Shown here: piece after piece, positions 780 to 22,087 of the stretch
Layout: each line of letters starts with the position of its first letter
Numbering within the stretch: the stretch's first letter is position 1
IMG/VR virus record: IMGVR_UViG_3300025096_000153
Coordinates: 1-22,087 of that record
Reading direction: 5' to 3' (one strand)
Source: a virus
Length of the DNA: 22,087 nucleotides
Notes under the pieces: model-generated
Told to the model about the DNA's origin: nothing
What the model saw: only the letters and a program-made list of their open reading frames with translations
Databases searched by the model: none
Position numbers and translations under genes: made by a program

Positions 780-2334
780 AAAATTTTTTTATGATAATAA
801 AGCAGCGGATCGGGCGGTGGCTTTTATAGAAACCCATATCCGCCACTGCAAAGGCGATTTGACGGGGGAAAAATTTATACTTGAAAAGTGGCAAAAAGAT
901 GAAATAATAAAGCCAATATTTGGATGGAAATATAAAAAAACTGGCTTGCGTAAATACCGAACTTGCTATGTAGAAATTCCACGCAAGAACGGGAAAAGCA
1001 GCTTAGGCGCAGCGCTTGCTTTGTTTATGTTATTTGCCGATAGCGAACGCGGTGCGGAAATATTTAGTTGCGCAGCCGACAGAAATCAGGCCAGCATCAT
1101 TTTTAATATTGCCAAAACAATGGTAGAACTTTCGCCCGAATTATCGGCACGCGCCAAAGTTTATAGAAACAGCATAGTGAATCCAGCCAAAGGAAACACT
1201 TATAAAGTTTTAAGCGCGGATGCAAAATTACAGCACGGACATAACAGTCACGGAATTTTCTTTGATGAATTACACACGCAAAGCACCCGCGAACTATTTG
1301 ATGCAATGCAAACCAGCACGGGAGCGCGAAGCCAAAGCTTGATGTTTTGTATTACTACGGCTGGCGCAAGTAAAACCGATGGAAATATTTGCTGGGAGAC
1401 ACACGATTACGCTACCAAAGTAAAAGAAGGGATAATAAAAGACGACTCATTTTTGCCCGTTATTTATGCAGCTGATGAAGAAGATGATATTCAATTACTT
1501 AGCACTTGGAAAAAAGCAAATCCAAACTACAATATAAGTATAAAAAAAGAGTATTTTAAAAGGGAAAGCGCAAAGGCCGCTGAACTGGTTAGCTATGAAA
1601 ATACTTTTAAGCGTCTGCATCTGAATATCTGGACTACCAATATCACCAAATGGATAGCGGATAGTATCTGGTGCGAAAACGCCAGTAAAATAAACCTAAA
1701 AGATTTGGAGGGGCGCGAGTGCTGGGGCGGGTTAGATTTGGCTAGCACCCGCGATCTCAGTAGTTTGGTTTTACTATTCCCAATGGATAATGAGAAATAT
1801 ATTGCTTTGCCTTTTTTTTGGTTACCGCGTGAAACTATTTACAACCGCGTTATGAAGGATAAAGTTCTTTACAATAAGTGGGTAGATCAGGGATTCATTT
1901 TTGCAAGCGAGGGCGATGTGCAAGATTATGAATTTATCCGTAAGCAAATAAATGATCTAGGCGCAAAATACAACATAAAAAGCATCGCTTTTGACCGCTG
2001 GAATAGTTCGCAGTTAGTTGTAAATTTAGCAAATGATGGATGCACGCTTAGCCCATTCGGACAAGGTTTTGCAAGTATGAGCGCACCGACAAAAGAACTT
2101 GAAAAGATTATTTTAAAAAGAAATTTAAACCACTTAGAAAACCCCGTTCTGCGCTGGCAGTGTTCCAATGTAAGCTTACGCACGGATCCCGCTTTAAATA
2201 TAAAAATTGACAAAGCAAAGTCCAGCGAAAAAGTGGATGGGATGGTGGCCTTAGTAATGGCGCTGGGGGAATATTTAACAGACGAAACCGAAGGCGATAG
2301 CGTCTATGACGATCGCGGAATTTTAACTTTATGA
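757..2334 (+). CDS. terL: Terminase large subunit (ATPase and nuclease)
   Basis: Packaging motor that pumps DNA into the prohead and cuts concatemers. It has 525 residues, matching the Terminase_1 family. The N-terminal ATPase shows a Walker A variant PRKNGKSS (K80, S81) and a Walker B IFFDELH (D170, E171) followed by the ITTAG coupling motif near residue 200. The C-terminal RNase H-like nuclease has its acidic triad in GGLDLAS (D327), IAFDRWN (D413) and KVDGMVAL (D494). All key residues are present, so the enzyme looks functional. It overlaps the small subunit upstream and has an ATGA overlap with the next small gene. Confidence 0.96.
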   Translation: MNSTSLNKKFFYDNKAADRAVAFIETHIRHCKGDLTGEKFILEKWQKDEIIKPIFGWKYKKTGLRKYRTCYVEIPRKNGKSSLGAALALFMLFADSERGAEIFSCAADRNQASIIFNIAKTMVELSPELSARAKVYRNSIVNPAKGNTYKVLSADAKLQHGHNSHGIFFDELHTQSTRELFDAMQTSTGARSQSLMFCITTAGASKTDGNICWETHDYATKVKEGIIKDDSFLPVIYAADEEDDIQLLSTWKKANPNYNISIKKEYFKRESAKAAELVSYENTFKRLHLNIWTTNITKWIADSIWCENASKINLKDLEGRECWGGLDLASTRDLSSLVLLFPMDNEKYIALPFFWLPRETIYNRVMKDKVLYNKWVDQGFIFASEGDVQDYEFIRKQINDLGAKYNIKSIAFDRWNSSQLVVNLANDGCTLSPFGQGFASMSAPTKELEKIILKRNLNHLENPVLRWQCSNVSLRTDPALNIKIDKAKSSEKVDGMVALVMALGEYLTDETEGDSVYDDRGILTL

Positions 2335-2534
2335 AACAACTGCCTTTTGAAATACTAGCTTTGCTGTCGCCTAGTGGATTTAATGATAGATTCCACAAAC
2401 ATTGCAAAACAAGTAAAACTTATGTAGAAGCTTATGAAAAAACAGATACGGAATATGAACAAATTTTCGGGAAGCGAAAATATAGTTCGTATAATAGTTT
2501 CCGAGTTTGTATGAATAGGCGCTTAAAAATGTAA
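2331..2534 (+). CDS. Conserved small hypothetical protein between terminase and portal
   Basis: A 67-residue basic protein without a known function. It overlaps the terminase stop by four bases (ATGA), a strong sign of coupled translation. The segment YVEAYEKTDTEYEQIFGKRKY followed by SYNSFRV resembles short ORFs that I associate with the packaging region of Bacteroidota phages and prophages; that similarity is from memory, not a search. No membrane segment or metal-binding motif is visible. It could be a packaging accessory factor, but nothing in the sequence proves it. Confidence 0.7.
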   Translation: MKQLPFEILALLSPSGFNDRFHKHCKTSKTYVEAYEKTDTEYEQIFGKRKYSSYNSFRVCMNRRLKM

Positions 2535-2592
2535 CAATGTTACCGCTTAGGAATTAAGGAAATGCGTAAAATTGCAAAAATCCTTATTTTTT

Positions 2593-3873
2593 ATGGCCAT
2601 CTTAGATTATTTCCGCACCTTTTTCACACCAAATAAAACCACAGAAAAACGCGGCTTCCTAGACCAGATGAGCCGCTATGCAAGCGGAAGCGCTATTTCA
2701 GTAAGCACCGATTCGGCTATGTCTTTTGCGGCTGTTTTTGCAGCCATAAGAATTCTATCTGAAAGCGTAGCGCAGCTTCCTATCCAGCTTTGCGAACGCG
2801 ATGCGAACGGGGATAAAACTATCCGCAACGATCACCCGCTTTACAATTTAATCCACCGCAAGCCGAACGGCTATATGACGACTTATATTTTTATGCAAAA
2901 AATAATCACAGATCTTTGCACGAATGGAAATAGTTATGTTCAAATAGTAAGAAATAACACCGCGCAGCCGCTTGAATTATTACCCTTGCAAGCAGATCAA
3001 ATGAGCGTGAAACAAATAGATGGAAAATATTTTTATCAGTATAGTGGCGGCAATAGTGGGCAAACAATTTTTGAAGCTGATGACTTGCTGCATTTTAAAG
3101 GGCTTACAACTGATGGCTTGATAGGGTTAAGCCCGATTGACACTTGCGCCAATAGCATCGGCTGGGGATTAAGCTTGGAAAAATATGGGAACACTTATTT
3201 CCAGAATGGCGCAAAGGTGAGCGGGGTGCTGCAAACCGACCGCAGCTTATCCACAGAAGCAGTAGATAGATTACGCAATTCCTTCAACGCAAATTATAGC
3301 AACATCGGGGACAGCAATAAAACACTAATACTAGAAGAGGGATTAAAATTTTCGGGGATTAGCTTATCAAATGAAGCTAGCCAGTTTCTTGTTAGCCGCC
3401 AATTTAGTATTGAAGAAATCGCGCGGATCTTTAATTTGCCGCCCCACTTGCTGCGCGATTTAAGCAAATCAAGTTTTTCCAATATCCAAGAACAAAGCCG
3501 CGAGTTTGTGCAATATAGCTTGATGCCTTACTTAAAAATGATAGAAAGCGAAATAAACGGAAAGCTTTTTAAGCAAACCGAAATTGGAAAAATTTTCGTG
3601 GAATTCAATGTCAATGCGCTTTTACGCGGCAACCCAAAAGATAGGAGCGAATATTATAGAACGATGCTTAATATCGGCGCAATGTCAATAAATGAAATTC
3701 GCCAAAAAGAAAACCTTAACGCAATAGAAGAAGGAGATAATCTGTTTATGCAAATGAATATGACTACGCTTACAAATATAGTAGAAGGACAACCAGTTGA
3801 AGAAGCACCAGCACCGCCAGAAATAGACGCTGAACTTTTAGAAGAGGAAGAAATTACAAACGGAACAAATTAA
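2593..3873 (+). CDS. Portal protein, HK97 family
   Basis: Forms the dodecameric portal ring at one capsid vertex through which DNA enters and leaves. I start it at ATG 2593 (MAILDYFRTFFTP, 426 residues), which fits the family N-terminus of a short hydrophobic stretch followed by a linker; a TTG at 2572 in the same frame would add seven residues and is less likely. Family features include SAMSFAAVFAAIRILSESVA, the DHPLYNLIHRKPN segment and the GLSPI segment in the clip/wing region, ending in an acidic proline-rich tail (residues about 395-426) that is commonly variable. The gene is followed after two bases by the protease gene. Confidence 0.95.
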   Translation: MAILDYFRTFFTPNKTTEKRGFLDQMSRYASGSAISVSTDSAMSFAAVFAAIRILSESVAQLPIQLCERDANGDKTIRNDHPLYNLIHRKPNGYMTTYIFMQKIITDLCTNGNSYVQIVRNNTAQPLELLPLQADQMSVKQIDGKYFYQYSGGNSGQTIFEADDLLHFKGLTTDGLIGLSPIDTCANSIGWGLSLEKYGNTYFQNGAKVSGVLQTDRSLSTEAVDRLRNSFNANYSNIGDSNKTLILEEGLKFSGISLSNEASQFLVSRQFSIEEIARIFNLPPHLLRDLSKSSFSNIQEQSREFVQYSLMPYLKMIESEINGKLFKQTEIGKIFVEFNVNALLRGNPKDRSEYYRTMLNIGAMSINEIRQKENLNAIEEGDNLFMQMNMTTLTNIVEGQPVEEAPAPPEIDAELLEEEEITNGTN

Positions 3874-10093: not shown

Positions 10094-12930
10094 TGGACGC
10101 GGCAATGAATGTAAGGGTAGGAGCTAAAACGCAGCAATTCGAAAAGGCGATGAAGCGAATGTCTATGCGGATTAAAAGATTTGGCGGCCAAGTTAAAAGG
10201 ATGGGCGCAAATATGACGCGGAACTTTACGATGCCGCTGGCTTTGGCGGCCGCAGCTAGTGTAAAACTGGCGCTTAGTTTTGAAAAGTCAATGACTAAAA
10301 TTCAAACGCTGGTAGGCGTTTCGGCTAAGGATGTCGGCCAACTAAAAAAAGAAGTTCTAGAATTAGGGGGGAAAACAGCGCAAGCCCCCGTCGAATTAGC
10401 TGAGGGGCTTTACTTTTTAACCAGTGCGGGCTTATCAACAGAGGGCGCGATGAAAGCTTTGGAGCAAGTTAGTAAAGGCGCAGCTGCGGGCTTAGGCGAA
10501 CAAGCCGATTTGGCCTTAGTTGCAGCCGCAGCGCAAAACGCTTACGGGGAAGGGACGCTTGATGCAACGGCCGCACTTGATGGCTTTGGCCAAATGGTTA
10601 AGACGGGGATGTTTGATGCCGCAGAATTATCCAAAGTGCTGGGCGTTCAATTAGGATTAGCTTCTAATTTAGGCGTAAAATTTGATGATGTTGGCGCTTT
10701 TATTTCTACCTATACAAGAACAACGGGAGACGCCACTGGCGCGTCTGTTGGCTTTGGGGCTGTTATGATGTCTTTTGCTAAAATTGCACCAATCCAAGAA
10801 AAGGCACTTGCTAAAATCAATATGAGTGCGGGAAGCTTGCGGGAGATGTTAAGTAAAAAAGGACTGCAAAAAACTTTACTTCATTTGCAAACAGAATTCA
10901 AAAAGAACGGAATGCAAATGTCCGAATTCTTTACAAAAAGTGGCGCACTAAAAGGCGTGATGGGGGTTCTTGGCGAATCTACTGAAAGTTATATAAGTAT
11001 TTTAAACCAAATGCAGACAAGTCAGGGCTTTGTCAATTCAGCTTTTGAGGAAACCGCCAAAACGAGTGCCTTCAAAATGGAGCAAGCCCTAAACAGCTTA
11101 AAAGTTGCGGCCACCGATTTGGGAACTATGCTTTTCCCCGTAGTTGAAAAGATAGCAGCAAAGATAAAATCGCTAACAGATTGGTGGAAGGGGTTAGATG
11201 AAGCGGGGAAGCAAAATGTTTTGACTTGGGGCAAATGGATTATGTTAGCTGGACCGCTTCTTTCTATAGTGGGCGGAATGATTATAAATATAGGAGCACT
11301 GATTCCTATTTTACTAAATGTAGCCAAAGGATTTCGAATGGTTACCGCAGCAATGTTATCCAATCCCTATTTAGCAGTCGGTGCGCTGGTGTCGGGATTT
11401 ATTATTTATATGTCCACGCTAGGCAGAAAAACCCGCGAACTAACAAAGGATCAGAAAGCTTTTAATAAAAAGCTAAGAGAAACCAAAGCAATTATGACGC
11501 AAGTTGCGGGATTACAAAAAGAAGTTAAAAATATCGACTTACTTTCAAAAGAACAACGGGAGCAGCTTTTAGGAAAATTAAAATTACAAAAAGCAGACGC
11601 AGCAAATACACTGAAAAATATGAAAATATTTGCCAGAGAAAATGCTGGCTTTCAGGCGTTAGATCAAACAATATTAAAACTTCACAAATCATTAAAAGGA
11701 AAAGGAAAAGCAGAACAAGGAGGTATCTGGGCGCAGATTAAACTTTTAACAGAAGAATCCAACGAATTAGTAAAGGAAAATTTTGGGGAAACTTTCCAGA
11801 ATGTAGCAAAACGCGCCAATCAATTAGCAAGAGATATTAAAAAAGTTGCTGGATCAATAAGCACATCGACTGAGGACTTAGGCGGTGATGATGTTGCTGG
11901 TGATGTTGCTGGTGCTGGTGATACTGGCGAAGCAGAAGCAGAAGCAAAAAGAAAAAAAGAAGCGCTTGCAGCATCGCTAGAAAATGTGCGAAAATTGAAG
12001 CAAGAATTTAATGTATTAACGGCAAAAGATGAACAAGCCGCTGCGCTAGTTTCTTTAAATAATCAAGAAACAAACGCTTTGCTTGCCATAGAAGATACCG
12101 AAAATGCAGCCGCTGAAAAACTAGCAATAGAAGAAAACTTTACAGAAAAAAGAAAAAAGCTTTTAGCCGATCAAGCAGCCGACACTAAAAAGAACTTAGC
12201 CGAGCAAGAAACCGAATGGGAAAAAATGTTTTCAAAAATCAGCAAAGGCTATAACCAGATTGCTGATGTAGTGAATCAAGTGCTTGGCGCTATTGGTGGG
12301 ATGTTAAGTGCGGAAGCCGATATGGAAAACGCTATTCTAGAAGAAAAGCACGCAAAAGAATTAGAGGATTATGATATTTGGATGGAACGGGAAACCGCCA
12401 AACTAGAAAATAAAGTAGGGAACAAAGCCGTAGAAGAAGCCGCGATGGTAGAACTAGAAAAAAAGGCCGCAGAAAAAAAAGCCAAACTAGAAGCAAAGCA
12501 AGAACGGGAAGCAAAAGCACTAAGAATAAAAGCTGCTAGAAGTGAAAAGAATATGAAAATTGCGAGTGCAATAATGGGAACAGCGCAAGCCGTAGTTAAT
12601 GCGCTAGGATCAGCGCCACCGCCTTTGAATTTCTTTCTTGCGGGCTTAGTTGGCGCAATGGGAGCAGCACAAATATCAATGATTGCAAGCACGCCAATCC
12701 CTTCAATGGCCGAGGGGGGATTAGCAATGGGCGACACGCTTGCGCGCGTAGGTGATTACGCTGGTGCGCAAAGCAATCCCGAAGTAATAGCGCCGCTTAA
12801 TAAACTCACGAGCTTAATAGGTGGGGGAAGTGGCGGCCGAATGGATATAAATATCACGGGCGAATTAAGCGGGAATGACTTAATATTAACAGAACAGCAA
12901 AGCGCAATAAATAGAAGTAGATTTGCATAA
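10093..12930 (+). CDS. Tail tape measure protein
   Basis: Sets tail length and is ejected during infection. It has 945 residues; at the usual ~1.5 angstrom per residue this suggests a tail near 140 nm. The N-terminus is basic, then a PhageMin_Tail/TP901 core (about residues 60-350; FEKSMTKIQTLVGVS, APVELAEGLYFLTSAG). Hydrophobic segments lie near 378-455 (WIMLAGPLLSIVGGMIINIG). A Gly/Asp linker with a duplicated DVAG (encoded by tandem 12-base repeats at 11890-11913) precedes a long coiled coil (~620-830). The end GLAMGDTLARVGDYAG then NPEVIAPLNKL is the classic C-terminus of these proteins. No muramidase or peptidase motif was seen. Confidence 0.93.
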   Translation: MDAAMNVRVGAKTQQFEKAMKRMSMRIKRFGGQVKRMGANMTRNFTMPLALAAAASVKLALSFEKSMTKIQTLVGVSAKDVGQLKKEVLELGGKTAQAPVELAEGLYFLTSAGLSTEGAMKALEQVSKGAAAGLGEQADLALVAAAAQNAYGEGTLDATAALDGFGQMVKTGMFDAAELSKVLGVQLGLASNLGVKFDDVGAFISTYTRTTGDATGASVGFGAVMMSFAKIAPIQEKALAKINMSAGSLREMLSKKGLQKTLLHLQTEFKKNGMQMSEFFTKSGALKGVMGVLGESTESYISILNQMQTSQGFVNSAFEETAKTSAFKMEQALNSLKVAATDLGTMLFPVVEKIAAKIKSLTDWWKGLDEAGKQNVLTWGKWIMLAGPLLSIVGGMIINIGALIPILLNVAKGFRMVTAAMLSNPYLAVGALVSGFIIYMSTLGRKTRELTKDQKAFNKKLRETKAIMTQVAGLQKEVKNIDLLSKEQREQLLGKLKLQKADAANTLKNMKIFARENAGFQALDQTILKLHKSLKGKGKAEQGGIWAQIKLLTEESNELVKENFGETFQNVAKRANQLARDIKKVAGSISTSTEDLGGDDVAGDVAGAGDTGEAEAEAKRKKEALAASLENVRKLKQEFNVLTAKDEQAAALVSLNNQETNALLAIEDTENAAAEKLAIEENFTEKRKKLLADQAADTKKNLAEQETEWEKMFSKISKGYNQIADVVNQVLGAIGGMLSAEADMENAILEEKHAKELEDYDIWMERETAKLENKVGNKAVEEAAMVELEKKAAEKKAKLEAKQEREAKALRIKAARSEKNMKIASAIMGTAQAVVNALGSAPPPLNFFLAGLVGAMGAAQISMIASTPIPSMAEGGLAMGDTLARVGDYAGAQSNPEVIAPLNKLTSLIGGGSGGRMDINITGELSGNDLILTEQQSAINRSRFA

Positions 12931-17342: not shown

Positions 17343-18092
17343 TTGGAATTTCGCCCACGATTATCAAGGCGCGAATACGATTTAATAAAGCAACACCGCA
17401 GCGCTGGGAATGTGGGAATTATTGGAGATACTCACGAACCTTTTTGCGTAGCTGGTTACCGAAATTTCTGTTATGATTTATTTGATCATTACGGGTGCAG
17501 CACCATAATTCACATCGGAGATGAGGTGGATAACCACGCACTAAGCTATCACGAAAACGCTGAGGGAAGTTTAGATGCTTTGCGTGAAGCAGAACTAGCG
17601 CAAGCGGCGATGGACAAATGGTATGCAACATTTGACCGCGTGAAAGTATGCGTCGGCAATCATTCGGCTTTGCCGTTCCGTAAGGCGACAACGCACGGAA
17701 TTCCAAAGCGTTTTTTGAAAAGCTACGAACAGATTTGGAAAGCACCAAAGGGCTGGACGTGGGATATGCAATACGAAATAGATGGCGTGCTTTACGAACA
17801 CGGAACGGGAAGCAGTGGTATAAATGGCGCTAGGAATAGAGCCATCGCTAATAGACAAAGCACCACGATTGGACACTTGCATTCTGCTGGCGGGGTGAGT
17901 TATATGGCCAGCCGCAATGATATTATCTTTGGACTAAATGTAGGATGCGGCTTTGATGTTAGTAGTTACGCGGCAAGCTATGGAAAGCACTTTCCACGCA
18001 AGCCAACAATCGGCGCGGGTGTAGTTTTATCGGGCGGCAAAGTGGGCTTCTTTATTCCTATGGATTTGGGAAGCAAAATATATAGAAAATAA
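17343..18092 (+). CDS. Calcineurin-like metallophosphoesterase
   Basis: A 249-residue two-metal phosphoesterase. All the usual ligands are visible in order: GDTH (D29, H31), GDEVDNH (D60, D63, H65), GNH (N106, H107), the EHG histidine (H153) and GHLH (H178, H180), so it is probably active. The substrate cannot be told from sequence; phage members may act on nucleic acid ends, nucleotides or proteins. No ATG fits: the start is most likely TTG 17343, one base after the holin-like gene, with a GTG at codon 24 too close to the first motif. It is the last gene before the terminator at 18211. Confidence 0.88.
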   Translation: MEFRPRLSRREYDLIKQHRSAGNVGIIGDTHEPFCVAGYRNFCYDLFDHYGCSTIIHIGDEVDNHALSYHENAEGSLDALREAELAQAAMDKWYATFDRVKVCVGNHSALPFRKATTHGIPKRFLKSYEQIWKAPKGWTWDMQYEIDGVLYEHGTGSSGINGARNRAIANRQSTTIGHLHSAGGVSYMASRNDIIFGLNVGCGFDVSSYAASYGKHFPRKPTIGAGVVLSGGKVGFFIPMDLGSKIYRK

Positions 18093-19752: not shown

Positions 19753-20064
19753 ATGGAAAAGAACATACAAACTGGCCGCGTATTTACTACGCTTAATGAC
19801 TTAGCAACTAAATGGGAACGAAATTTAGAGCAGCTAGAAGCACGCGAAAAAGAACTTAAAGCAAAGGATGATCAGCTTACTTGCTTGGCCGTTTCAATGG
19901 TGGCCGATAATACTTTGGAACATATTATAGCACTGCGTAAAGCGATTACAGATTTACAGCGCTTAGAAAACCACGAAAAAACAATGACAAACAAACTGCT
20001 TGAAACTATGTTGAACCAAGCAAATCCTATTAACTTTAAAAAACCAAAAAAAGATGATAATTAA
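19753..20064 (+). CDS. Hypothetical coiled-coil protein
   Basis: A 103-residue, almost fully helical protein. Residues ~15-45 (LATKWERNLEQLEAREKELK) and ~60-88 (EHIIALRKAITDLQRLENHE) have heptad patterns that suggest dimerisation. The C-terminal end KKPKKDDN is basic then acidic and overlaps the next gene by 11 bases. Function unknown; the link to the following SSB-like gene suggests a replication or recombination context. Confidence 0.65.
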   Translation: MEKNIQTGRVFTTLNDLATKWERNLEQLEAREKELKAKDDQLTCLAVSMVADNTLEHIIALRKAITDLQRLENHEKTMTNKLLETMLNQANPINFKKPKKDDN

Positions 20065-20494
20065 AACCAGCAAAGTAGAAAGCGCGCAATTCCTTAAAAC
20101 TTGGGAAAGCCGTAAAGGAGATACATTTTACGCACATCAAATCCAAATGGAAAACGGGGATTGCGGGGAATATTCCAGTAAAACGCAAGAGCAAAATAAA
20201 TTTAATGAGGGTGAAGAAGTGCAATACGAATACCACCCACACGAAAGTTTCCCTAAAATCAAACCGCACTATTCACGGCCGCAATTTACTGCTATGCAGA
20301 ACGACAATACAATGGTTCCAAGCGTAGCAATAAAAGCAAGCGCAGTATTTAATGCGGGGCGAAATGTTAGCGCGCAGCAAGTTGTAAAAGACGCCAAAGT
20401 TTTTGCGGCTTTTATTAACGAATCGCCAGCTGAAACTGAATCGCCAGCTGAAACTATTTCCAAGATAAAAGCAGAAGAAAAAGATCCTTTTTAA
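20054..20494 (+). CDS. Putative SSB-like OB-fold protein with acidic DPF tip
   Basis: A 146-residue protein. The N-terminal ~65 residues (FLKTWESRKGDTFYAHQIQM, NGDCGEYSSKT, FNEGEEVQYEYHP) have the strand pattern of a small OB-like domain common in Bacteroidota phages. A middle Ala-rich linker follows, with a tandem ESPAET duplication, and the protein ends KAEEKDPF. An acidic, PF-terminated tail is the hallmark of bacterial SSB proteins, where it recruits partners. I infer single-strand DNA binding; no direct family match was confirmed. It is coupled to the upstream gene by overlap and touches the next start. Confidence 0.6.
   Translation: MIIKTSKVESAQFLKTWESRKGDTFYAHQIQMENGDCGEYSSKTQEQNKFNEGEEVQYEYHPHESFPKIKPHYSRPQFTAMQNDNTMVPSVAIKASAVFNAGRNVSAQQVVKDAKVFAAFINESPAETESPAETISKIKAEEKDPF
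20420..20455 (+). repeat. Tandem 18-base duplication (ESPAET x2)
   Basis: GAATCGCCAGCTGAAACT occurs twice in tandem and exactly (20420-20437, 20438-20455), adding six residues to the linker of the SSB-like protein. A copy-number variable linker would not harm the frame. Confidence 0.85.
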
Positions 20495-20884
20495 ATGGAA
20501 AACACTATACTAAAAGCAAAGCTTATTCTTGCGCAAATGTTTGGAATAGGAAAGATTCATTTTGAAAAGCACAAAAGCCGTAAAACAAATATTAATGAAG
20601 CCCGCAGATTTTTGATTTATTTTTTGCGCAAAGAATTAAATGTTACTTTTACTGAGATTTGTAAATATGTGCCAGCACTAACAAACCACGCCACCGCTAT
20701 GCACCATCACAAAAGGATGAAAGAACTACTGGAAGTTGAAGCGCCAATATTGCGCAAGTATGAGGAATTTAAAGAAACCCTTTTAAGCGATGAAACGCTA
20801 TCGATCCAGCGTGAAATAATTGGCTTGAGAAATACGCGCACTAATTTAACAGCGCAGATCACTAAATTAAAAAAACTTTTATGA
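20495..20884 (+). CDS. Stand-alone DnaA domain IV-like DNA-binding protein
   Basis: A 129-residue protein whose central part (about residues 30-75: KTNINEARRFLIYFLRKELN, FTEICKYVPALTNHATAMHH) follows the C-terminal DNA-binding domain of DnaA: an AR-x-x-x-x-x-L-R helix, a helix-turn-helix, and the NHATAMHHHK segment in place of DnaA's DHSTVMHA. There is no ATPase part. The C-terminal third is a coiled coil (IIGLRNTRTNLTAQITKLKK). It may bind DnaA-box-like sites in the phage origin or act as a regulator that competes with host DnaA; both are inference. It starts immediately after the SSB-like gene and overlaps the next by four bases. Confidence 0.7.
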   Translation: MENTILKAKLILAQMFGIGKIHFEKHKSRKTNINEARRFLIYFLRKELNVTFTEICKYVPALTNHATAMHHHKRMKELLEVEAPILRKYEEFKETLLSDETLSIQREIIGLRNTRTNLTAQITKLKKLL

Positions 20885-21156
20885 AATTACAAATCACAAG
20901 TTTCAAGAATACTCCAAGCAAATACGGGGGTTTTTTTTACTATGTATTTTTTAAAGACGATGCTGGCAAAAATTACAAAAGTTGCATCTATCCAAATTGC
21001 CGCAATTTTAATAAGTGGCGCAGCGTTTTAAAACGCGGGGCTGTCTTGGATAATTTAATACTAAAAAGCGCGGGCTTAGTTGATGCTGATAGCAATTTTA
21101 ATTTTTTAGGTATTAAGCAAAGCAAGCCCAAACCACAACACCCAAAACTATTTTGA
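20881..21156 (+). CDS. Conserved small phage protein, possible OB-like fold
   Basis: A 91-residue basic protein. The pattern FYYVFFKDDAGKNYKSCIY, CRNFNKW, VLKRGAVLDNLILKSAGLVD ADS resembles a family of short proteins near replication genes in Bacteroidota phages (from memory). Strand-rich with conserved RNxxxW and DADS segments, it could be a nucleic acid binding OB-type fold. No catalytic residues are clear. ATGA overlap with the DnaA-like gene; ends one base before the next start. Confidence 0.65.
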   Translation: MKLQITSFKNTPSKYGGFFYYVFFKDDAGKNYKSCIYPNCRNFNKWRSVLKRGAVLDNLILKSAGLVDADSNFNFLGIKQSKPKPQHPKLF

Positions 21157-21157
21157 T

Positions 21158-21373
21158 ATGAAAGAACTATTTGAAGCTGATTATGGAATTGATAACAGCG
21201 CACCCGACAGCACTGAAATAACTACGACGATTCTTTATTTTAGCAAAGAAGAACTGAAACTATTTAAACAGCTTTGCAAAAAAGGAATGCAAAAGGAAAC
21301 GCTTAATTTAAGCACAGCCAATATATCTGATTTTTTACTACTAATTTTAAAACAAAGATATGAAAACCTATAA
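21158..21373 (+). CDS. Small hypothetical protein before the dioxygenase
   Basis: A 71-residue protein, with a flexible acidic N-terminus and a helical C-terminal part FSKEELKLFKQLCKKGMQKE and NISDFLLLILKQRYENL. The two-helix end with a hydrophobic SDFLLLIL core resembles small regulators or RHH-like dimers, but the match is not secure. It overlaps the following dioxygenase gene by 14 bases in another frame, so the two are probably translated together. Confidence 0.65.
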   Translation: MKELFEADYGIDNSAPDSTEITTTILYFSKEELKLFKQLCKKGMQKETLNLSTANISDFLLLILKQRYENL

Positions 21374-22087
21374 ATTAAAAAAGCACCTAACACAAAAAGA
21401 AGCTGCAAAACTTAAAGGAACTTTTTTAGATGATAAAAGCTATGATATTATAATAGACCACGATGCTGATGGTTTTGATTTATACGGGAATTTATTATTT
21501 AGATTTCGGAAAGGGGTTTTGCCTTACAAAGTTTTAAAGAACGGATACGACAGTTTTAAGGACAGCATACAGCTAACTGATGGGCGTGGTATAGTTAGCG
21601 GAAGCAGCCATAAAAGGATCTTAAAAGACGGAACAGTGAGCAAAATAACAGTAGGAAATAAAGTATTAAGCGGGAATGTAGGTTATATGGATAGAAATGC
21701 GATGGTGCAATATTGCCGTAAAACTGCGTTCGGCCGCAAATACTTTGAAAAATTTAAAGCTGGAATTCCTTTTGTAGAATTTATAGATAAAAAATATGAA
21801 GAACTTTGCCCCGCTTATTATAAAAAACAAAAGGCCATCGCCGCTGGAACCAATAGAAACTATGTAATTGGAGATACCAGTTATACAACAATCACACTAA
21901 ATAAAAATTTTAGAACTGCGGTGCATCAAGATAGCGGTGATTATCGGGAAGGTTTTGGAAACCTTTGTGTCTATCGTGAGGGTGATGTAAAAGGCGGCCT
22001 TTTTGTTTTGCCAGAATTTAGGGCGGCCGTAGATATGCAGAACTGCGATATGTTTTTTGCTGATGTGCATAGATGGCACGGAAATAC
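21360..22087 (+). CDS. TET/JBP-family 2-oxoglutarate/Fe(II) dioxygenase (C-terminus cut by window end)
   Basis: DNA base dioxygenase; 242 codons are visible and the frame runs off the window. Established members of the family oxidise the methyl group of 5-methylcytosine (TET, phage TETs) or thymine (JBP). The core is clear from about residue 75: DGRGIVSGSSHKR, GYMDRNAMVQYCRKTAF, then TITLNKNFRTAVHQDSGDYR with the iron HxD pair (H189, D191), GFGNLCVYREGD, GGLFVLPEFRAAVDM, and FADVHRWHGN with the distal iron histidine (H240). The 2-oxoglutarate-binding arginine should lie just beyond the window. The N-terminal 70 residues are unassigned. ATG 21360 overlaps the upstream gene. Confidence 0.88.
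   Translation, partial: MKTYKLKKHLTQKEAAKLKGTFLDDKSYDIIIDHDADGFDLYGNLLFRFRKGVLPYKVLKNGYDSFKDSIQLTDGRGIVSGSSHKRILKDGTVSKITVGNKVLSGNVGYMDRNAMVQYCRKTAFGRKYFEKFKAGIPFVEFIDKKYEELCPAYYKKQKAIAAGTNRNYVIGDTSYTTITLNKNFRTAVHQDSGDYREGFGNLCVYREGDVKGGLFVLPEFRAAVDMQNCDMFFADVHRWHGN

Follow-up and report, generated by a model that had tools for sequence, protein, structure and literature searches.

A TET/JBP-type dioxygenase and a putative clamp-docked DNA-hypermodification operon in a marine bacteriophage

The stretch of DNA analysed here (the window, 22,087 bases) is one entire IMG/VR record, IMGVR_UViG_3300025096_000153, and its right-hand edge encodes the start of a genuine TET/JBP-type enzyme. The explanation that best accounts for our results, to which we give a probability of about one half, is that the window belongs to a siphovirus-like phage of marine Bacteroidota with a TET/JBP-type DNA-hypermodification operon, in which modification would follow a thymine route and the tailoring enzymes would be docked on the sliding clamp. 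What can be read off the sequence is which family TET belongs to and which catalytic residues it keeps, how the genes are ordered, that the enzymes which follow are of the GT-B and radical-SAM families, and that a set of C-terminal tails exists and is enriched by position.

The TET/JBP gene and its surroundings

As the window is a whole record, the TET gene, open from 21360 to 22085 and beyond, is cut by the record end, and 21360..22087 (plus strand) holds codons 1-242 of 287 of a TET/JBP 2-oxoglutarate/Fe(II) dioxygenase. A search of viral contigs retrieved IMGVR_UViG_3300006754_000123 (L002), which overlaps the window over 10,728 positions, agrees with it at 10,714 of them and completes the gene at L002 10001-10864, giving a protein of 287 aa. 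The Pfam profile Tet_JBP (PF12851) matches the cut-off frame with an E value of 1.3e-12 and 47.7 bits (curated cut-off 34.9), and the complete protein with 5.4e-17 and 61.9 bits, reaching the last profile position. The preliminary description, which had called a phage TET/JBP dioxygenase here from the letters alone, is thereby supported, and the residues it singled out (H189, D191 and H240) lie at the positions it gave and are, together with R253, invariant in 15 aligned TETs. The Fe(II) triad HxD...H and the 2-oxoglutarate arginine are intact in the window-type TET; R253, past the window end, is presumed to be that arginine. A premature stop beyond 22087 with loss of the arginine, named in the same description as an outcome that would refute it, is ruled out by the 287-aa protein of L002, in which R253 is kept.

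Another way for the assignment to fail would be that the gene encodes a 2-oxoglutarate oxygenase of another class, such as an AlkB/FTO-like repair enzyme or RNA demethylase. The fold superfamily is common to both, and FTO and AlkBH3 do appear lower in a PDB fold search made with the AlphaFold2 model of TET (mean pLDDT 89.7). However, ranks 1-26 of that search are all TET, NgTET, CcTet or CMD1 chains, at E values of 1e-10 to 1e-13 against 1e-6 for FTO, the closest predicted folds being NgTET1, CcTet, CMD1 and TET2, and the Pfam match exceeds its cut-off. The AlkB/FTO reading was rejected on the fold search and retains only a very slight likelihood, so that the second refutation foreseen, a structure search favouring another oxygenase family, did not materialise. 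The TET/JBP identity of the gene is confirmed by sequence and model, and the oxidation of methylated bases, i.e. of a 5-methyl pyrimidine in DNA, is inferred from it. The gene is a fresh member of an already known family. TETs of its clade have their C-terminus in a conserved TG[YF]LxL-like peptide (L002 10840-10861 and relatives). For scans of sequence collections the alignment of all 15 TETs proved too divergent, and a narrower one (A2) was used. Annotation of these genes appears unreliable in places: HTVC112P (L020) and Cr30 (L022) have their TET genes entered as DnaJ/SNF2 DNA repair proteins, and the PHROG that TET matches bears the label queuine tRNA-ribosyltransferase, both apparent misannotations.

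Directly upstream, and overlapping the TET start, lies the gene of a 71-aa protein (21158..21373, plus strand; no family match), whose cluster, c2, occurs in 12 loci; a small gene of this type precedes TET in most clade members. It follows, on the same strand, a 91-aa protein with no family assigned (20881..21156), which ends in ..QHPKLF and whose homologue in the related contig L003 ends in ..HQPKLF, i.e. in a QxxLF tail of the kind described below. Further upstream are a 129-aa DnaA domain IV-like DNA-binding protein (20495..20884, plus strand) and a 146-aa SSB-like protein (20054..20494, plus strand), the latter recognised from its sequence alone. These SSB-like and DnaA-like neighbours had been proposed before and stand only in part: the acidic C-terminal tip ..EEKDPF of the one and the Bac_DnaA_C match of the other (E 2.4e-5) speak for them, but the DnaA match is under its curated cut-off and no SSB model or other family matched the 20054..20494 protein. 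A metallophosphoesterase-like gene (PF00149, phrog_221) is found at 17343-18092 of the window; one is also annotated in Nonlabens phage P12024L and another is encoded near the TET of L053.

The window, the L002 contig (G001, 27.4 kb) and the L003 contig (G002, 26.7 kb) all have their first base at one homologous position, a short way ahead of the first gene and upstream of the terminase-like genes. That three assemblies stop at one base suggests a real genome end; the common start is therefore probably a real and fixed end, and G001 and G002 are, by inference, probably near-complete. No end repeats were found. The search of genome contigs returned a single distant relative, in a Winogradskyella MAG, which leaves the window phage without a directly identified host.

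Tailoring genes downstream of TET

The preliminary description had placed the missing partners of TET either further to the right or in the host, and the near-identical contig L002 bears out the former with genes for a radical-SAM/SPASM enzyme and for a GT-B glycosyltransferase. The radical-SAM/SPASM protein (315 aa, L002 10861-11808) is encoded directly after TET and is predicted from PF13186 (E 9.9e-12) and PF04055 (E 6.6e-6, just under its cut-off). It has the CX3CX2C motif and the SPASM cysteines, and five relatives all conserve C18, C22, C25, C209, C227, C271 and C274; two further matches in GC-rich contigs (L025, L026) were left out, as no operon could be read there. Among solved structures, BtrN alone is related to it in sequence (E 1.6e-9), with an alignment that spans the SPASM/Twitch region. 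The second gene after TET encodes a 309-aa protein (L002 11810-12739) that has no Pfam family match and is assigned by fold: Foldseek relates it to BshA, MurG, Gtf3 and SenB at a probability of ~1, i.e. to the two-Rossmann GT-B fold, on a model that is modest (mean pLDDT 74.6, built from 6 sequences). After it come a replication-initiation-like HTH protein (PHROG match) and other small genes, one of them for a VRR-NUC protein. The association recurs independently, as ParB, TET and this glycosyltransferase in L031, L130 and L132, and as ParB, TET, radical SAM and a glycosyltransferase-like gene in L028. In L132, two tandem GT-B paralogues (1510-3293) follow TET and perhaps add two sugars.

A survey of the clade, in which 91 loci collapsed to 47 at 95% TET identity, found a tailoring cassette after TET in all of these non-redundant members. 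The cassettes are of several types: TAGT (PF20691) with or without F1; a P-loop kinase and/or ADDT (PF18724), again with or without F1; radical SAM plus GT-B, which is the type of the window phage; and F1 only, in one contig that is itself cut. L002 and L003 differ in cassette even though their TETs are 85% identical. Since the cassette is swappable, the genes downstream of TET in the window phage itself might in principle not be those of L002. F1 (L086 3498-3953 and relatives) is a 151-aa protein, often between TET and the glycosyltransferase and frequently QxxLF-tailed; it has no Pfam match, and a G-x-E-x-K-N-D stretch in it is suggestive of a PD-(D/E)xK nuclease.

Phage TET/JBP dioxygenases have reportedly been described in hypermodification gene clusters. 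The window phage has the Pfam family, the catalytic residues and the neighbouring tailoring enzymes in common with these; but their usual set is a methyltransferase with TAGT-type enzymes, whereas the window type has radical SAM/SPASM plus GT-B and no C5-methyltransferase was found. In P12024L the TET is 68% identical and occupies the same locus (gp26-gp28), followed by two QxxLF-tailed genes; its cassette, unlike the window type, is TAGT plus a DNA methyltransferase. The combination of TET, radical SAM and GT-B was matched to no characterised pathway, and a literature search for radical SAM together with TET found nothing relevant. A new modification pathway, which had been raised as a possibility, thus remains one.

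A shared C-terminal tail on the cassette enzymes

An exact C-terminal Q-x-x-[LIMV]-F ends 56 of the 131 genes at positions +1 to +3 from TET, as against 4/814 at other positions, and none of 250 ORFs of other phages. The Fisher p for this enrichment (1.5e-48) is indicative only, given that related sequences do not count as independent. More telling is that the tail is common to unrelated families, namely TAGT, F1, the P-loop kinase, ADDT, C5-methyltransferase, another DNA methyltransferase, radical SAM and GT-B. On the window-type glycosyltransferase and radical-SAM protein it is an added stretch, absent from their homologues elsewhere; TET itself does not carry it (0/47), and in the complete P12024L it occurs on two ORFs alone, those right after TET.

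The bacterial clamp-binding consensus is QL[S/D]LF or Q-phi-x-[L/M]-[F/L], with an aliphatic residue favoured at position 2 (PMC13254535), whereas the tails have QxxLF exactly at the C-terminus and residue 2 is often not aliphatic (T, Q, K or S in many cases). QLKFEF is the C-terminal sequence of flavobacterial Pol IV. Transposases have acquired QLxLF-type motifs, typically C-terminal, by convergent evolution (PMC4549789). For a DNA glycosyltransferase there is a phage precedent: in T4, the alpha-glucosyltransferase is recovered together with the clamp gp45 on purification (PMC13216743, where Sommer 2004 is cited), and the same study, from 2026, holds that association with gp45 is not the main determinant of glucosylation proportions. 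The clade motif differs from the T4 case in that it is of beta-clamp type, lies at the extreme C-terminus and is common to several unrelated families at one operon position. The pattern suggests replisome-docked hypermodification, and docking of the cassette enzymes on the replication clamp through the tail is plausible, with no binding data behind it.

The tail could instead bind another partner, e.g. TET or the conserved 71-72-aa protein, so as to assemble a modification complex. Its near confinement to the TET cassette (the 56/131 against 4/814 above) and the conservation of the small gene upstream of TET are both in keeping with this; the sequence, however, is close to the clamp-binding consensus, which is typically C-terminal in transposases (PMC4549789), and T4 alpha-glucosyltransferase, likewise a DNA-modifying phage enzyme, binds its clamp (PMC13216743). 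We consider such a complex possible and somewhat doubtful. That the tail has no role as a protein, and is the by-product of a conserved DNA junction aiding cassette recombination, would suit the evident exchange of cassettes between relatives as close as L002 and L003, but the tail is not fixed as DNA: it is written with CAA or CAG, with TTA, CTA, TTG or CTT, with TTT or TTC and with any of the three stop codons, whereas at the protein level Q, L and F are kept and positions 2-3 vary freely. This codon-level variation makes a recombination junction improbable.

Substrate, proposed pathway and implications

The identity of the oxidised base had been left unknown, and our results narrow it towards thymine without proving it. 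No C5-methyltransferase was found in the window, as the preliminary description had stated, and a search with PF00145 gave none in G000, G001, G002 or the complete genomes of P12024L, HTVC112P and Cr30; the same method detects one beside TET in phage Melnitz. Relatives of the tailoring enzymes are found in clusters of the 5-hmdU type. In E. coli phage EP_H11 (L109), where TET is absent, the glycosyltransferase homologue occurs together with a P-loop kinase, a thymidylate-synthase homologue and HMUDK_hel, the helical domain of 5-hmdU DNA kinase (E 4e-35). The closest radical-SAM relative outside the clade (L024, 63%) adjoins HMUDK_hel (E 8e-47); its contig also encodes a thymidylate-synthase homologue but lacks TET. 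ADDT is found within the TET clade. The same tailoring families thus follow either a thymidylate-synthase-type or a TET route, which favours 5hmU derived from thymine. By eye, the EP_H11 thymidylate-synthase homologue (L109 11860-12933) seemingly lacks the PCH triplet usual in the active site and has ICN at the apparent equivalent position.

5-Methylcytosine, supplied by a host or an undetected phage C5-methyltransferase, oxidised by TET to 5hmC and then glycosylated and remodelled, is a live possibility, short of even odds. Characterised phage TETs are said to oxidise 5mC. Besides the Melnitz gene, a C5-methyltransferase is present in 7 of the 48 further virus records of the clade search, so that cytosine is possible in some members, and in L042 it lies within the cassette and ends in QIELF. 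The known relative of TAGT, in T6-type phages, acts on glucosylated hmC (PMC13216743). Against this, PF00145 has no match in the near-complete G001 and G002 or in the complete P12024L and HTVC112P, reliance on host methylation would restrict the modification to host motifs, and the glycosyltransferase and radical-SAM homologues co-occur with HMUDK_hel and thymidylate-synthase homologues. Thymine (T to 5hmU to a glycosylated base) is the likelier substrate on this sequence evidence; 5-methylcytosine is not excluded.

We propose that TET would hydroxylate a 5-methyl pyrimidine within the phage DNA, most likely thymine to 5-hydroxymethyl-dU, a J-base-like first step, and that the GT-B enzyme would transfer a sugar onto the hydroxymethyl group. 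By analogy with BtrN, a radical SAM dehydrogenase that dehydrogenates a hydroxyl of an aminocyclitol, the radical-SAM/SPASM enzyme may then oxidise, epimerise or otherwise remodel the sugar or substituent. BtrN acts on the free aminocyclitol, whereas the target proposed here is a DNA-bound sugar. Finally, the C-terminal QxxLF peptide would tether the tailoring enzymes to the host's beta sliding clamp and thereby let decoration travel with the fork. Substrate, final base and clamp binding are inferences throughout. In the kinetoplastid base J pathway, i.e. JBP1/JBP2 plus a glucosyltransferase, thymine is likewise oxidised at the DNA level and then glycosylated; the differences are the phage setting, the extra radical-SAM step and the fact that thymine oxidation is only inferred here. 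The thymidine hypermodification phages (HMUDK, ADDT) have glycosyltransferase and radical-SAM homologues beside HMUDK_hel and thymidylate-synthase homologues (EP_H11, L024), and ADDT and the P-loop kinase recur in TET-clade cassettes; there 5hmU is made as a nucleotide by the thymidylate-synthase homologue, while here it would arise in DNA by TET. A more ambitious version, which we offer only tentatively and think unlikely to hold in full, is a plug-in system on the fork, in which one conserved TET oxidises thymine, the host beta clamp recruits interchangeable enzymes (TAGT, kinase plus ADDT or radical SAM plus GT-B) that have nothing but the C-terminal docking peptide in common, and the window product is an unprecedented radical-SAM-remodelled glycosyl-5hmU.

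Phage TETs, their presumed role in oxidation before decoration, and the binding of a clamp by one such phage enzyme, the DNA glucosyltransferase of T4, are already known. What appears new, from sequence, is the combination of TET, radical SAM and GT-B and the shared putative docking tail. Neither is described in the literature searched, which did not include the main TET papers, and prior description can therefore not be excluded. If true, the proposal would give phages a second, DNA-level route to thymine hypermodification, with a link to the origin of base J, and would add radical-SAM chemistry to the decoration of DNA bases. A docking tail of this kind would account for the way in which enzymes of unrelated families are exchangeable within a single pathway and still act at the fork, and such fork-coupled action would precede the encounter of restriction enzymes with bare DNA. 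The complete isolate P12024L, with two tailed genes directly after TET, renders the docking idea testable, and the tail would be an easily recognised sequence mark by which modification enzymes still unknown could be found.
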